Below, in pieces: positions 11,888-34,093 of a stretch of 34,093 nt of DNA. The stretch's first letter is position 1. Each line of letters starts with the position of its first letter. The notes beneath the pieces are model-generated. The model saw only the letters and a list, made by a program, of their open reading frames with translations. It did no database searches and was not told the DNA's origin. A program made the translations under genes and the position numbers. The DNA is from Patescibacteria group bacterium (GTDB taxonomy: Bacteria > Patescibacteriota > Minisyncoccia > Minisyncoccales > PEYH01). The DNA lies in contig JAHIFQ010000001.1 in assembly GCA_018900835.1 (NCBI GenBank), forward strand, positions 1 to 34,093. The letters run 5' to 3'.

Positions 11888-11922
11888 GAGGCGCCACCCA
11901 GAGTCATCCGGGCGGCGCTGTT
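11888..11922 (-). terminator. Terminator of the DUF502 gene
   Basis: On the minus strand GCGCCGCCC and GGGTGGCGC pair around a short loop and are followed by CTCTTTTTATG. The TGA stop of the DUF502 gene (11904-11906) lies within the loop, so the last residues of the protein are encoded by the terminator arm. Confidence 0.7.
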
Positions 11923-12470
11923 TGTGACTTTTTGCCACGATGCTGATTGTTGTTTGAGAGAGGACAAGGAGAACTATCAAGCTTTTCTGGGAAATCTCCG
12001 AACCCCATGGATGTCAGTATGGCCAAGTGTGCTGGTATAGATAGGTTGATGAAGGTTATATTGGAGAGTGGAACCAACATCAATTGTCCAGAAATAGGGA
12101 GCGGAGCAGAAGGCACGAGCACAATGTAGAGAATTTCCTCATCAATTTGAGTCACGCCTGTTAGCCAGCCCAGAAACCGATTGCTTCCCCACTCAACCAG
12201 GACTACGCCTTTTGCCTGCCTTGTTTTGATCCTGAGGATCTTATACATTATGGCTCTGAATGGATGGGAGAGCATAATTACATAACCAATAGCAGCCAGA
12301 GCTGCCAGTGTCAAGGCGCAAGCAACAGACCACTTCAGTATAGTGTTTTTCAGTCCAATGATTTCGAGAATGGGTTCCCATATGTCATTGGATACTCGCA
12401 GAGCCCCAATCACAATGTAGGAAATGGCTGCAACAGCCACTCCCCAAAGCATTGCCTTCTTTAGCTTCAT
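11904..12470 (-). CDS. DUF502-family membrane protein
   Basis: Two hydrophobic segments (near residues 8-25 and 45-67) precede a soluble domain. Its strands match DUF502 proteins: KGVVLVEWGSNRFLGWLTGV, ILYIVLVPSAPLPISGQLML and VPLSNITFINLSIPAHLAIL. The function of the family is unknown. The ATG at 12470 is chosen because GGAGGTGA ends 2 nt before it, giving a classical SD (GGAGG at 12476-12480). That SD stands out, since most genes here have none and the 16S lacks the anti-SD. GC content also appears higher than in its neighbours, consistent with recent transfer. Confidence 0.8.
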   Translation of the reverse strand: MKLKKAMLWGVAVAAISYIVIGALRVSNDIWEPILEIIGLKNTILKWSVACALTLAALAAIGYVIMLSHPFRAIMYKILRIKTRQAKGVVLVEWGSNRFLGWLTGVTQIDEEILYIVLVPSAPLPISGQLMLVPLSNITFINLSIPAHLAILTSMGFGDFPEKLDSSPCPLSNNNQHRGKKSQTAPPG

Positions 12471-26553: not shown

Positions 26554-26572
26554 TAAATAGCAAACGCAAGAT

Positions 26573-26594
26573 AAATTTTTAGAGTTGTTCCGAC
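26573..26594 (+). other. 5' strand of the pre-16S processing stem
   Basis: AAATTTTTAGAGTTGTTCCGAC can pair with 31069-31090 over 21 of 22 positions including two G-U pairs. It is the expected RNase III-type stem that encloses the 16S. Confidence 0.7.
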
Positions 26595-26695
26595 TATACC
26601 TGTTTTGTCTGCGAAACTGAGTGTTTACGAAGTTGAGTAGAAACAAAACAGAGTACCCTGAGCGAGTCCGCGAGGACGCGCGAAGGATTTTTTTT

Positions 26696-26726
<31 letters not shown>

Positions 26727-27208
26727 AGCGGCGTGGATAAGGCATGCAAGTCAAACGGTCCCCCACCTATCGAACATTGCGCTTTGCGCAACCAAACGAA
26801 AGTTTATGTTCAATAGGTGGGGGACAGTGGCAAACGGGTTAGTAACACGTGGATACATTCCACTAAGACAGGCATAATCCCGCGAAAGCGGGACTAATTC
26901 CTGATAGTCCCTGCGAGCAATCAAAGGGTAAAGGTTTCGCAAGATTCCACTTAGTGATTGGTCTGCGGCCCATCAGCTAGTTGGTGAGATAATAGCCCAC
27001 CAAGGCAATGACGGGTAGGCGGGGTGAGAGCCCGACCGCCAACAAGGGTATTGAGATACGGACCCTACTCCTACGGGAGGCAGCAGTCAAGGACCCTTCG
27101 CAATGGCCGAAAGGCTGACGAGGCGACGCCGCGTGAAGGATGAAGCCCCGCGGGGTGTAAACTTCTTTTAACTGAGAATAATTCGTGCCTCACTTTTGTT
27201 CAGCACTC

Positions 27209-27323
27209 ATAATTTTGAATTTTGAATTTAAAATTTTTAATGAATTTTTAATGATTTAATTTTTAAACATTAAGTCATTAGGTCATTGATTAGAAATTAA
27301 AAATTAGAAATTAGAAATTGAAC
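27209..27323 (+). repeat. AT-rich insertion in 16S helix 17
   Basis: The helix 17 stem is ATTCGTGCCTC (27181-27191) with GAGGCACGAGT (27341-27351) and GCACTC (27203-27208) with GAGTGC (27324-27329). Between the inner arms lie 115 nt of AT-rich repeat, of which 27218-27263 matches 26283-26328 at 45 of 46 bases. No ORF lies within it. It may remain in mature rRNA or be cut out (fragmentation). Confidence 0.8.
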
Positions 27324-27387
27324 GAGTGCCGAGTGGAAGCGAGGCACGAGTGAATGTACCAGTGGAATAAGGGGCTGCTAATCACGT

Positions 27388-28265
27388 ACATTTTGGTGCG
27401 TCCTTCAGGAGTAATCCTGAAGTGTAATCCTTCTTGGCCCAAGAAGGTGAGTCGGCTTATATGCTGGGAACCCATATTCATTATGGCAATCAGCAGGGAA
27501 GTCGCTTATAATAAAAGCAATGAGATTATCTCACAAAGATTCTATCACCAAAAAACAGCAAGAAATTATTCTTGGCAGTATTTTGGGCGATGGATCGCTG
27601 GAGTTCAATGGATTTCATGGAACGAGGTTACAGATTAAACAATCGGCGAGACACGGGGATTATGTCTTCTGGTTGTATAATCAATTAAAAAATCTCTGTA
27701 ATTTGGAACCAAAACAGCGAAGAGATAATAATCAGTGGTACTTCAGTACGAAGCATTTAGAGAAATTGACAAAGTGGCATAGATTGTTCTACTCGCCAAA
27801 AAAGAAGATTCCTCGGGATATTAAAACTTTATTGATATCGCCGAGAAGCTTGGCGGTTTGGTATATGGATGATGGCTCTCTAGATTGGAGAGTCAGGGAC
27901 CATTATGCCTTCACTCTATGTACAGATTGTTTCTCGCTTGAAGATGTTTCTTTATTAAAAGAAACATTGTTGCGAAATTTCGGAATCGAAGCGTCTGTCA
28001 ATAATGCTTTGTGTAGAAGTATAAGATATCCAAGAATCTATATAGGTGCTAAAGGTAGAGATAAATTTCTATTTTTAATAAGACCATATATCTTGGATTG
28101 TTTTTCCCATAAATTGCCTCCATTATAAGTTGACCCCCCAGAGACTTCTTTGGATAAAACCAAAGAGATGGCAGGTTTAAACTGCCATAACACGCCGAAC
28201 CCCTGTTAGATATATGTCTGATAGGGTGAAGATATAGTCCACATTGATAATTTATATCAATTAAG
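27388..28265 (+). mobile_element. Group I intron after 16S position U516
   Basis: The 5' exon ends TCACGT and the 3' exon begins GCCAGCAG; the intron ends in G (28265). ACGT of the exon can pair with GCGT at 27398-27401, giving the U-G wobble at the splice site (P1). The P7-type elements are AGAGACT near 28140-28146 and GAAGATATAGTCC at 28228-28240. Length 878 nt including the endonuclease ORF. S516 is a known insertion site. Confidence 0.85.
27520..28128 (+). CDS. LAGLIDADG homing endonuclease of intron 1
   Basis: This 202-residue protein has two LAGLIDADG motifs, ILGSILGDGSL (residues 17-27) and LAVWYMDDG (111-119). It is therefore a monomeric two-motif enzyme of the LAGLIDADG_2 type expected to cut intronless 16S genes at the 516 site. 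The ORF fills the space between the intron 5' part and its R/S core. The reading frame is intact, which suggests recent or continuing activity. Confidence 0.92.
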   Translation: MRLSHKDSITKKQQEIILGSILGDGSLEFNGFHGTRLQIKQSARHGDYVFWLYNQLKNLCNLEPKQRRDNNQWYFSTKHLEKLTKWHRLFYSPKKKIPRDIKTLLISPRSLAVWYMDDGSLDWRVRDHYAFTLCTDCFSLEDVSLLKETLLRNFGIEASVNNALCRSIRYPRIYIGAKGRDKFLFLIRPYILDCFSHKLPPL

Positions 28266-29140
28266 GCCAGCAGCAGCGGTAATACGTGAGCCCCGAGCGT
28301 TATCCGGATTTACTGGGCGTAAAGCGTTTGTAGGCGCCTTATTGTGTTTTCTATCAAATCTCTGAGGCTCAACCTTGGAGCAGTAGAAAAAACTAGTAGG
28401 GTAGAGGACGTTAGGGGTTGATGGAACCCTCGGTGTAGGGGTGGAATCCGTTGATATCGAGGGGAACACCAAAAGCGAAGGCATTCAACTAGAGCGATCC
28501 TGACGCTGAGAAACGAAAGCGTGGGCATGGAAGAGGATTAGATACCCTCGTACTCCACGCTGTAAATTATGGACACTGGCTATTGGAAGTGTCGACCCTT
28601 TCAGTGGCGAAGCTAACGCGTTAAGTGTCCCGCCTGGGGAGTACAGCCGCAAGGCTGAAACTTAAAGGAATAGACGGGGACCCACACAAGCGGTGGATCA
28701 CGTGGCTTAATTCGACGATAAGCGAGGAACCTTACCAGGGCTTGACATGCTAATGAAAGTCCGCCGAAAAGCGGACCTACCCACAAGGACATTAGCACAG
28801 GTGCTGCATGGCTGTTGTCAGCATGTGCTTTGAAGTGCTCCCTTAAATGGGGTAACATGCGCAACCCCTACTCTGTGTTACAAGTGTCACAGAGGACTGC
28901 CACATCTTATGTGGAGGAAGGCGGGGATGACACCAAGTCAGCATGGCCCTTTGATGCCCTGGGCCGCACACGTGATACAATGGTTGGTACAGAGGGTTGC
29001 CAAGCCGCAAGGCCAAGCTAATCCCTAAAACCAATCTCAGTTCGGATCGGGGGCTGAAACTCGCCCCCGTGAAGCTGGAATCGCTAGTAATCGCGAATCA
29101 GCTATGTCGCGATGAATATGTTCCTGGGTCTTGTACTCAC

Positions 29141-29978
29141 ATCGTAAAGCGTCTGGCAGTTTATTAAATTAAGCAGTTAAAATCTGCTCCCTCATAAATC
29201 ACCGTCTATGAGGCGTAGCTGAAAGGTAGTCAAGTTTCGTGAGGAATTTGGCGAAGGACCTGGAGGCAAACTGTAGCCCATTTTATAAAAAGCTCTATCG
29301 ACCTATGGACTGGGTGGTGAGCATAGGGAAGATAAAATAATACGAGCTAAATGGGATGCGGGGAATAGTATAATAAATGACCCAGAGAGATCTTTATGGT
29401 AAGATTAAGTTATAAGCCATAAAGAAGTCAGCTAAGTCATAGTACTCAATACATAATTTATTATGTACTGGGGAAGGACTTAACCTATCTATGCTTTCAA
29501 AAGATTATATAATTGGGTTAACTGATGGAGAAGGAACGTTTCTTGTATATATTTGGAAACGCGAAAAAATAACACAAAATCCTAGGGTAGAGTGTTATTA
29601 TGCGATAAAAATGAGAGAAGATGAATTACCATTACTTGAAGAAGTTAAAAAATTCTTTGGGTGTGGCAATATCTATTTTCAAAAAGAATATCGCAAAAAT
29701 CAAAGAAATAATTATCGATTCCAGATAAGGAAAATTGATGAACTAAACAAGAAAGTTATTCCTCTATTTAAGAGAAATCCATTACATAGTCAGAAGAAAA
29801 GAGATTTCGAGATTTTTTGTAAGGTGTTAAATATAGTGAATAAAAAAGAACACCTTAATAAGAAGGGATTAGAAAAAATCAAGAAATTAAAACAAGGAAT
29901 GCATAAATAGGCCTCCGCCGTATGCGGGAAATCCGCACGTACGGTAGGAACGGAAGATAAATTTAATATCATTTCATT
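29141..29978 (+). mobile_element. Group II intron after 16S position C1399
   Basis: Domain V is recognisable at 29912-29948: CCTCCGCCGTATGCGG, GAAA, CCGCACGTACGGTAGG, with a CGC triad where AGC is commoner. Domain VI is GGAAGATA...TATC-A-TTTC at about 29951-29975, with bulged A at 29971 lying 7 nt before the 3' splice site, the expected branch point. GTGAG (29239-29243) can pair with the exon end CTCAC (EBS1-IBS1). The 5' end reads ATCGTAAAGCG rather than GUGYG. It encodes a LAGLIDADG protein, not a reverse transcriptase. Confidence 0.85.
29491..29910 (+). CDS. Single-motif LAGLIDADG homing endonuclease of the group II intron
   Basis: The 139-residue protein has one motif, YIIGLTDGEGTF (residues 6-17), and so should work as a homodimer (LAGLIDADG_1 type). 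It ends 2 nt before domain V. No reverse transcriptase or maturase-X domain is present, so mobility would depend on DNA cutting rather than retrohoming. LAGLIDADG ORFs in group II introns are known mainly from fungal mitochondrial rRNA genes and giant sulfur bacteria. Confidence 0.9.
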   Translation: MLSKDYIIGLTDGEGTFLVYIWKREKITQNPRVECYYAIKMREDELPLLEEVKKFFGCGNIYFQKEYRKNQRNNYRFQIRKIDELNKKVIPLFKRNPLHSQKKRDFEIFCKVLNIVNKKEHLNKKGLEKIKKLKQGMHK

Positions 29979-30063
29979 CGCCCGTCACACCAAGAGAGCT
30001 GGTAGTATCCGAAGTCCCGCTTCTGCGGGCTCAAGGTAAGACCAGTGATAATGGTGAAGTCGT

Positions 30064-30900
30064 CCGATTAAATAATAAAGAAGGCGACCTGTCAACCGTA
30101 AGGTGACAGTAAAATCTAACTGTAACGGTGAAGCCGACCTGCTATTATGTTATAATAAAAACATAATTAGTAAGCGGTAATACCGTGGGAAGTCGAGGAA
30201 ACTTAAAATGGAATAGTTCTGAAGTGAGAGAGCTTAGGCAAAGCTTAAGTTTATCTATAATTCAGAATAACATACTAATAGGTCTAATTTTAGGAGATGG
30301 ATGTCTTTTTAAGAATATAGGGGATAAGAATTTCAGACTACAGATAGAGCAATCAGAGAGGCATAAGAGATATGTCGCTTGGCTATATAGTGAGTTTAAA
30401 GAATGGTCTTTGAATCCACCAAAATATGTAAGGCAACATTGTGCATGGCGATTCCGTACTCTTGCTCATCCTCAGATTACGAGATTTCATGAGATATTCT
30501 ATAAAGATAGAAAGAAGATTATTCCGCCAGACATAGAAGGCATATTTACGTCTCCATTGAGTTTAGCTGTATGGTTCATGGATGATGGAGGAGTAAAATC
30601 AAACAAGACTAATCCTACTATTAGTACACACTGTTTTTCTTTAAAGGAAAACGAAGTGTTGACAAAAATTCTTAAGAAGAATTTTGGAATGAAAGTTAGT
30701 ATACATTGGGACGGAAAAGGTAATCGATTATATATTCCAAGAAAAGAGATTAAAACATTTTTGGATATAGTATCGCCTTATATTCTTCCTTCAATGAAAT
30801 ATAAATTTCCTTTGACCCCGTAGAGACTACACGTTGGCTCCAACAAGTAATGTTGGATGAAGATATAGTCCATGCCTCTGGAAACACGAGGGAAAACATG
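30064..30900 (+). mobile_element. Group I intron after 16S position U1498
   Basis: The 5' exon ends GAAGTCGT, the intron ends ...ACATG with terminal G at 30900, and the 3' exon is AACAAGG. P7-type elements: GTAGAGACTACACG (30820-30833) and AAGATATAGTCC (30860-30871). Length is 837 nt. U1498 lies in the decoding centre near the P site, so splicing is needed for a working ribosome. Confidence 0.85.
30185..30823 (+). CDS. LAGLIDADG homing endonuclease of intron 3
   Basis: Up to 212 residues with two motifs, LIGLILGDGCL (about 31-41) and LAVWFMDDG (127-135). It is similar in layout to the intron 1 enzyme, with WFMDDGGVKS and KLYIPRKEIKTFLD-like regions, so the two probably share ancestry. The start is uncertain (GTG at 30185 or GTG at 30224). 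The stop codon lies inside the R element of the intron core. Confidence 0.92.
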   Translation: MGSRGNLKWNSSEVRELRQSLSLSIIQNNILIGLILGDGCLFKNIGDKNFRLQIEQSERHKRYVAWLYSEFKEWSLNPPKYVRQHCAWRFRTLAHPQITRFHEIFYKDRKKIIPPDIEGIFTSPLSLAVWFMDDGGVKSNKTNPTISTHCFSLKENEVLTKILKKNFGMKVSIHWDGKGNRLYIPRKEIKTFLDIVSPYILPSMKYKFPLTP

Positions 30901-31068
30901 AACAAGGCACGCGTAGCGGAAGCTGTGCGTAGATCACACAATCTTTATCTTTTTAATCTTGTTTACAGGATTAAGAGGATAGAGTGTCGACTATAGTTCA
31001 AGGCCGAGATATCTGCTTTTAACTATAAGGTGTTGACTAAAACACCTTAAAAAATTAGTCATTCATCG

Positions 31069-31090
31069 GTCGGGACAACTCCAAGAATTT
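31069..31090 (+). other. 3' strand of the pre-16S processing stem
   Basis: GTCGGGACAACTCCAAGAATTT pairs with 26573-26594. It lies about 125 nt beyond the mature 3' end. Two smaller hairpins (AATC/GATT near 30955-30977 and AAGGTGTT/AACACCTT near 31027-31049) lie between. Confidence 0.7.
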
Positions 31091-31101
31091 ATCTCAAATT
31101 G

Positions 31102-31135
31102 AAACCCAAAAAGCGCTTAAGCGCTTTTTGGGTTT
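31102..31135 (+). terminator. 16S operon terminator
   Basis: AAACCCAAAAAGCGCTT and its exact complement make a perfect 17-bp palindrome ending in GGGTTTT. Symmetric, so possibly bidirectional. Confidence 0.8.
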
Positions 31136-31158
31136 TGCCACTCCCAGGCGAATTTTGC

Positions 31159-31195
31159 ACTTGACAAGTTATATCATGTACGCTATTGTGTACAT
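31159..31195 (+). promoter_or_regulatory. Promoter and operator of the Phd/RelE operon
   Basis: TTGACA (about 31163-31168), 17 bp and TATTGT (about 31186-31191). ATGTACGC and GTGTACAT form an inverted repeat over the -10 (about 31178-31196), a likely site for antitoxin autoregulation. Confidence 0.6.
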
Positions 31196-31215
31196 ATAAT
31201 AATATCAATAAATAT

Positions 31216-31533
31216 ATGAGCACAAAAACCACTATTTCAATTTCTGAAGCCAGAAAAAGAATTTTTCAACTTACCAAAGAAGTGCAAAGACCATCAGTGT
31301 TTTACACCTTGACCGACAATGGTAGGCCAAAAGCAGTTATAATGTCTGCCCAGGATTTTGAATCTTGGCAGGAAACCTTAGAAGTAATGAATATCTTTCC
31401 TAACTGGAAAAAGAACATAGAAAAGGCAAGAGAAGATTATAAGAAAGGCCGTACTGTTTCTTTAGAAAAATTACTTTTCAAAGATGGTTTCGTATTACAG
31501 AAAAAAGCAAATAAAAGGCCGAAGCATGTATAA
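31216..31533 (+). CDS. Phd/YefM-like antitoxin
   Basis: The ATG at 31216 gives MSTKTTISISEARKRIFQL, the DNA-binding N-terminal pattern of Phd/YefM antitoxins, then PKAVIMSAQDFESWQETLEV and a C-terminal tail that would wrap the toxin. It has 105 residues. It overlaps the toxin ORF by 8 nt. The upstream GTG at 31186 lies in the operator and is not used. Confidence 0.88.
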   Translation: MSTKTTISISEARKRIFQLTKEVQRPSVFYTLTDNGRPKAVIMSAQDFESWQETLEVMNIFPNWKKNIEKAREDYKKGRTVSLEKLLFKDGFVLQKKANKRPKHV

Positions 31534-31777
31534 AGTAGAAATTTCCAGAGCAGCGCAAAAAGATTTAAATAAGATAGATTTTACATATCGTCCGCATATT
31601 TGGGCAGCCATGTATGACCTGCAAAAAAATCCTTTCCTCGGCAAAAAATTAAGCGGTGACTTAAAAAATTGCTATTCTTTACGAGTGGGTGATTATAGAA
31701 TTTTATACGAAATTTCTCATAGAATTTTAATGATTTTGATAATTCGCATCGGTCATCGCCAGGGCATATACAAATAA
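31526..31777 (+). CDS. RelE/ParE-family toxin
   Basis: Starting at ATG 31526, MYKVEISRAAQKDLNKID opens an 83-residue RelE/ParE fold protein. Conserved parts are NPFLGKKLSGDLKNCYSLRVGDYRILYEI and the ending IIRIGHRQGIYK, typical of RelE-type ribosome-dependent mRNA interferases. The basic residues R(VGDYR) and H(RQ) are candidate catalytic residues. It pairs with the antitoxin just upstream. The RNA ends it would produce could be substrates for ThpR (inference). Confidence 0.9.
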   Translation: MYKVEISRAAQKDLNKIDFTYRPHIWAAMYDLQKNPFLGKKLSGDLKNCYSLRVGDYRILYEISHRILMILIIRIGHRQGIYK

Positions 31778-31795
31778 ATAATAAATAAAAATAGT

Positions 31796-31975
31796 AAAAA
31801 TAGTACACGTCCCCAATTTGTATTCCTTTAAGTATACAATAATAGTATACTATGAGAAACTATAATCATTATAAAATTAGAGAAATTATTAATAAAAATA
31901 GTACAGGTCCTCAATTTGATGATTAAAAATAGTACACGTCCCCAATTTGAGTCGTCCCCAATTTGTCAATTTGTA
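31796..31975. repeat. GGGGACGTGTACTATTTTT-type repeats, inverted cluster
   Basis: At least four units read in complement as AATAGTACACGTCCCCAATTTG or partial forms. A perfect AGTATAC-AATAATA-GTATACT hairpin lies at 31832-31852. The same repeats, in the other direction, form the array at 33590-34093. Confidence 0.8.
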
Positions 31976-33589: not shown

Positions 33590-34093
33590 CTGTGTTAGTT
33601 GGGGACATGTACTATTTTCTTTCTTTTTCCATTTCGCATCTTTTTTTGGTAATGGGGGACGTCTTACTATTTTATTCACTCGCTTCTTTTTAGATGGTTA
33701 ATCGGGGACGTGTACTTAATTGGGGACGTGTTATTTAATTGGGTTAATTGGTTAATTGGGGACGTGGGTTAATTGGGGACGTGTACTATTTATTATTACA
33801 CTCTTCTGTCTTGCCCATAAATTGGGGACGTGCACCATTTTATAAATTGGGGACGTGCACCATTTTATTCTTCTTGCCCAAGGGTTACCCCTTACTTAAT
33901 TGGTTAATTGGGGACGAGTACAATTTTATACTTCTTGCCCAAGGGTTACCCCTTACTTAATTGGCCTTAATTGGTTTAATTGGGGACGTGTACCATTTTA
34001 TTCACTCGCATCTTCTTAGATTTTTAATTGTTAATTGGGGACGTGTAATTGGGGACGTGCACTATTTATTATGCACGAAAATTAATTGGGAAT
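33590..34093. repeat. Dense array of GGGGACGTG(T)AC palindromic repeats
   Basis: About twelve units of AATTGGGGACGTGTACTATTTTATT or variants run to the window end. Longer duplications include CTTCTTGCCCAAGGGTTACC at 33870 and 33931, and TATTCACTCGC at 33672 and 33999. Spacing is irregular and no spacers are conserved, so this is not CRISPR. The units are REP-like; no RAYT transposase is in the window. No gene is evident here. Confidence 0.85.

Follow-up and report, generated by a model that had tools for sequence, protein, structure and literature searches.

The anti-Shine-Dalgarno (anti-SD) sequence is one of the most conserved stretches in bacterial rRNA, and its losses have mainly been recorded in Flavobacteriia, endosymbionts, some mycoplasmas and scattered single genomes. 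The 16S rRNA gene in the window, by which we mean the whole stretch of 34,093 nucleotides of Patescibacteria (Parcubacteria) DNA analysed here, ends without it. This raises the question of whether the sequence is genuinely missing from the organism and, since protein synthesis must begin another way once the anti-SD tail is lost, of how its genes are started.

The 3' end of the 16S rRNA gene

Immediately 3' of helix 45 the gene reads GATCAC-ACAATCTT (30932-30945), that is, GATCA-CACAATCTTTATC as opposed to the usual bacterial GATCA-CCTCCTTTCTA (Table 1), which bears out the claim of a preliminary description of this DNA that the 16S 3' end lacks an anti-SD. The same description held that no CCTCC occurs before the processing stem, and a search of positions 30937-31110 indeed returned none. 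If the loss is true, the mature 16S 3' end is expected to lie within GAUCACACAAUCUUUAUC. The description had also regarded the operon as intact and decay as no simple explanation; for the processing stem and the terminator the former is confirmed, and the latter is upheld by these two elements together with the spliced exons, which account for 1431 of the 1515 positions of the intronless relative used as reference.

Table 1 Features of the window discussed in the text (positions in the window)
Feature	Position	Strand	Remarks
SD-class gene	11904..12470	-	GC 0.47; leader ctggaggtgaatATG
16S processing stem, 5' arm	26569..26595	+	pairs with 31069-31095, -35.1 kcal/mol
16S rRNA gene, split by homing introns	26698..30945	+	Rfam RF00177; exon coverage relative to intronless relative
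Last 16S intron, with LAGLIDADG-type ORF (30185-30823)	30064..30900	+	boundaries inferred from the uninterrupted GTCGTAACAAGG of relatives
Last 16S exon: helix 45, GGAA tetraloop, GATCA	30901..30936	+	reads AACAAGGCACGCGTAGCGGAAGCTGTGCGTAGATCA
16S 3' tail, anti-SD missing	30937..30949	+	CACAATCTTTATC; expected CCTCCTTTCTA
Trailer hairpin, 5' arm formed by the changed tail	30938..30987	+	-21.4 kcal/mol, z = -5.36 relative to shuffles
16S processing stem, 3' arm	31069..31095	+	contains the only downstream CTCC (31079)
rRNA operon terminator hairpin	31100..31137	+	

The trailer hairpin that begins in the changed tail has a 5' arm that is invariant in three species and a 3' arm that varies. More generally, a GTCGAC followed by a hairpin is conserved 3' of the 16S tail in most members of the order (e.g. 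30984-31070 of the window), so that conservation is higher in the trailer than at the anti-SD position. Two further observations concern the DNA beyond the operon: a small gene pair just 3' of it (31186-31777) resembles, by eye, a Phd/YefM antitoxin and a RelE toxin, and many dispersed copies of a GGGGACGTGTAC-type sequence are found in intergenic DNA at 31795-31960 and 33590-34093.

Homing insertions are common in the rRNA genes of CPR bacteria (PMC11270868), and a further intron could in principle mask an exon starting with CTCC. The last intron interrupts the 16S just 5' of helix 45, has the borders of group I introns (exon end T, intron end G) and gave no significant intron match in an Rfam search. 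No intron was found 3' of helix 45: relatives have none, the trailer hairpin and the processing stem follow directly, and with Rfam, the downstream sequence and the intronless relatives in agreement the possibility of a masked exon is ruled out and the loss of the anti-SD stands. Another 16S intron, at ~29150-29980, has group II-like domains (Rfam RF01998, RF00029) and encodes a LAGLIDADG-type ORF (29491-29910) in place of a reverse transcriptase, a combination known from CPR 16S genes (PMC11270868).

Could the organism's real 16S tail nevertheless be normal, and the one in the window stem from an assembly error, a mis-binned contig or a decaying pseudogene? The genome (654.5 kb, listed as 100% complete) is a bin of 20 contigs, rRNA operons frequently assemble poorly, and two other bins contain foreign 16S genes (G087:C43 and, probably, G292:C15). 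Against this, alignment with relatives shows the same changed tail, identical over ~25 nt, in two independently assembled congeners (G001 and G002), an agreement that takes the place of read support, the 16S is complete with its stem and terminator intact, SDs have been lost from the native genes too, and the own 16S genes of all genomes sampled from the order are without CCTCC (see below). A genome search recovered a single 16S gene and a single, unlinked 23S gene, and no second 16S with a normal tail; nor was a second copy found in the other genomes of the order, foreign contigs apart. An artefact is thus barely credible, and neither assembly error nor decay accounts for the missing anti-SD. 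The extra 16S of bin G087 does contain CCTCC, and its contig, of 59% GC, is clearly foreign (G087:C43, L037); together with the apparently foreign second 16S on G292:C15 it serves as a warning for surveys of 16S tails in bins.

Distribution of the loss across the order

The loss of the anti-SD is not peculiar to the genome in which it was first observed. Among bins in which the tail could be located through a helix 45 pattern, and which thus have an assembled 16S with a helix 45 of the usual form, CCTCC was present in the own 16S of none of 48 genomes of the order, drawn from 25 families, in 61 of the 74 genomes of the class outside the order, and in nearly all genomes in the remainder of the phylum, a contrast that chance does not explain. 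A Candidatus Harrisonbacteria record displays the same TAGATCA signature and is likewise without CCTCC. Many tails of the order, for instance CTACATTTCTA, align to CCTCCTTTCTA free of gaps, with C changed to T or A.

Since a 16S tree from which the tail was omitted recovers the order as a clade at 100/100 support, the loss would be ancestral to the order. The tail would have stayed adjacent to helix 45 while T or A took the place of its C residues, a change most simply assigned to the ancestor of the order; the replacement can be read directly from the tails, and its timing depends on the tree. Losses outside the order are interleaved with genomes that have CCTCC, one of them inside a clade of 100/100 support, and several independent losses are therefore likely there, with the reservation that the deep nodes of the tree are weak.

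Translation start in native genes

The preliminary description had combined the altered 16S with SD-less genes into an uncommon translation system. With start codons assigned by a simple rule, an SD precedes 7 of the 563 native ORFs, defined by a GC content below 0.44, compared to 2 in a displaced control, and 29 of all 608 ORFs. The proposed combination thus holds for the single 16S and for the native genes, but not for a GC-rich minority that keeps canonical SDs, a class that is hidden when the count is averaged over GC. A shifted SD that matches the new tail is ruled out as a substitute: no matching motif is enriched, and the pairing of native leaders with the changed tail does not exceed that of shuffled leaders. 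Being without both an SD and a pairing to the tail, the native genes would be started independently of SDs.

Where promoters can be placed, they offer an indication of how this might proceed. Complete promoters ending 10 to 6 bases before the start codon were found for 15 operon-first genes against 2.3 expected, and a -10 box at position -7 of the start codon for 27 against 13.1 expected, whereas the peak is absent from operon-internal genes (2 against 1.6 expected). Such start-codon promoters, which cover a minority of genes, indicate leaderless mRNAs as judged from sequence, and a second group of operon-first genes has its promoters centred 26-40 bases upstream. Leaderless initiation is known in archaea and several bacteria, and in operon-first genes a -10 box at a distance of about 7 bases from the start codon would be in keeping with it; unlike in leaderless systems, only a minority of first genes is of this type here, and leadered genes without SDs are also common. 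Part of the native genes would then start from leaderless mRNAs, and others from leaders rich in A and U, together with a conventional IF3 and an S1-like protein of four domains: the leaders are A/T-rich, and IF3 and S1 domains are present. The protein bS21, which adjoins the SD helix, is rarer in the order (15 of 60 relatives) than in a class-wide sample (70 of 112), and a search for its domain (PF01165) in 10 genomes from the family found none. Relatives that keep CCTCC share the leaderless peak and have SDs in few genes, so that a low dependence on SDs probably preceded the loss of the anti-SD.

Loss of CCUCC accompanied by scarce SDs has been described in Flavobacteriia, haemotropic mycoplasmas, Carsonella and Hodgkinia, and in single CPR genomes of Absconditabacteria SR1, Campbellbacteria, Peribacter and Wolfebacteria (PMC10783764, PMC6107228). 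Our genome resembles the SD-scarce group iv of genomes without CCUCC (PMC10783764) in that no 16S copy carries the motif (here a single 16S with the tail CACAATCTTTATC), the variant is common to close relatives (identical in G001 and G002, and 0/48 for CCTCC in the order), SD mRNAs are few (29/608 overall, 7/563 native) and no replacement pairing between leader and tail is seen, the native leaders behaving as shuffled ones. It departs from the known CCUCC-less cases in that the loss extends to a whole order (25 families read) and recurs elsewhere in the class, and in that canonical SDs are conserved in a GC-rich class of genes. In Bacteroidia, as represented by Flavobacterium johnsoniae, the anti-SD is hidden by bS21, bS18 and bS6, and rpsU has an extended SD (PMC9976891). 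That system likewise has mostly SD-less genes and a few with an extended, conserved SD; here, by contrast, CCTCC is missing from the 16S, not occluded, bS21 has no match in the family genomes, and the SD genes are other than rpsU.

Taken together, it is highly probable that the anti-SD is truly absent and the trait inherited throughout the order, that native genes are started without SDs, and that a GC-rich class keeps them. Single CCUCC-less CPR genomes have already been published; an order-wide loss in Patescibacteria and a retained, conserved SD class in a lineage without anti-SD did not turn up in the literature examined. That literature, mostly without subscription papers, yielded PMC10783764 alone on the anti-SD of Patescibacteria, and novelty is accordingly unproven.

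GC-rich genes that keep Shine-Dalgarno sequences

An SD precedes 22 of the 45 ORFs with a GC content of at least 0.44, compared to 7 of the 563 others (p = 5e-22). The class comprises about 30 genes dispersed over the genome, with a GC content of 0.44-0.56 against ~0.37. Their SDs, of which AAGGAGGTGA is an example, are perfect, extended and normally spaced; besides the gene in the window (Table 1), loci in the same genome include C10:11215-12022, C14:50546, C15:33556-36536 and 62659, C16:761-4897 and C17:3089-4843. Their products include a GGDEF protein, a deoxynucleoside kinase, an NDK fusion, a phosphoribosyltransferase, an acyl carrier protein, PKD proteins with lipoprotein-like signals, a Mu Gam-like protein, a PIG-L deacetylase and proteins without assigned function. 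Contamination by whole contigs is ruled out, because the genes sit singly among native genes, several of them in conserved synteny. Two other members of the order, G097 and G073, have few such genes. A conserved class of this kind is not predicted by the picture of an order-wide loss.

The SDs are kept between species. In a comparison covering ~560 kb of G001 and ~210 kb of G002, the SD was retained in 9 of 12 alignable G001 relatives of the class, against a native background of 7 of 370 (p = 5.5e-12), and in 5 of the 6 orthologs in strict synteny. The G001 ortholog of the gene in the window, for example, is 66% identical, has two syntenic flanking genes and carries the leader aaaggagatggaaaaaATG. 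At fourfold sites 46% of positions differ between the species, so that SDs that were relics should have decayed. For a gene encoding a HAD-like protein, the motif recurs across three genera of the family and extends to a second one. Something, then, seems to read the SD class. That, in a lineage whose own ribosomes are unable to pair with SDs, those of the ~30 genes are under purifying selection and are read by a hidden anti-SD RNA, by a protein or by another cell's ribosomes is a tentative reading to which we give somewhat less than an even chance.

Set against it is the possibility, which comes close to an even chance, that the genes were acquired from SD-using bacteria and phages and that their SDs are functionless relics. 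Such an origin would agree with their high GC content and few conserved functions, with the 62% identity between the kinase and a gene carried by a viral contig that also has a terminase-like ORF, with the 34 viral relatives of the Mu Gam-like protein, and with the finding that some genes have no ortholog in the congener sequence sampled. It fits poorly with the several genes that are syntenic in the genus and have kept their SD after near-saturating fourfold divergence, and with the wide retention of the HAD-like gene's SD. The viral contig in question (L288, IMGVR_UViG_3300033141_001667) has its deoxynucleoside kinase, the counterpart of C5:12907-13635, near the terminase-like ORF; no viral counterpart was found in scans with the HAD-like protein or with the PKD proteins.

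If the SDs are read within the cell itself, the hidden anti-SD might be a second 16S missed in assembly, a trans-acting RNA or an RNA-binding protein. The conservation of SD position and sequence in spite of the fourfold divergence speaks for such a reader, but we regard it as unlikely. Foreign contigs apart, no genome of the order has a second 16S; the leaders of the class, which would pair with a canonical tail at a mean of -13.8 kcal/mol, pair with the organism's own tail no better than shuffled leaders; and no obvious candidate emerged for a trans-acting RNA, the inspected TCACCTCC or CACCTCCT sites being mostly antisense to SDs, in genes or at tRNA ends.

Alternatively, the class could be addressed to the ribosomes of a different cell, for instance an episymbiont's host. 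The SD is canonical and extended, 7 of 36 genes have their own promoters with leaders and none is leaderless, and the GC content is high regardless of that of the genome (0.46-0.49 for the HAD-like gene in genomes of ~0.36-0.41). We nonetheless consider this quite improbable, as there is no known route of transfer, many of the products carry signal peptides and resemble ordinary surface proteins, and the genes are scattered single loci on the chromosome.

An entire large order without an anti-SD, with further losses nearby, turns what was a curiosity into an experiment on SD-free translation start at the level of a lineage, and gene callers that rely on ribosome binding sites may misplace starts within it. 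The retained SD class provides a direct test of what, besides an anti-SD, can read an SD.
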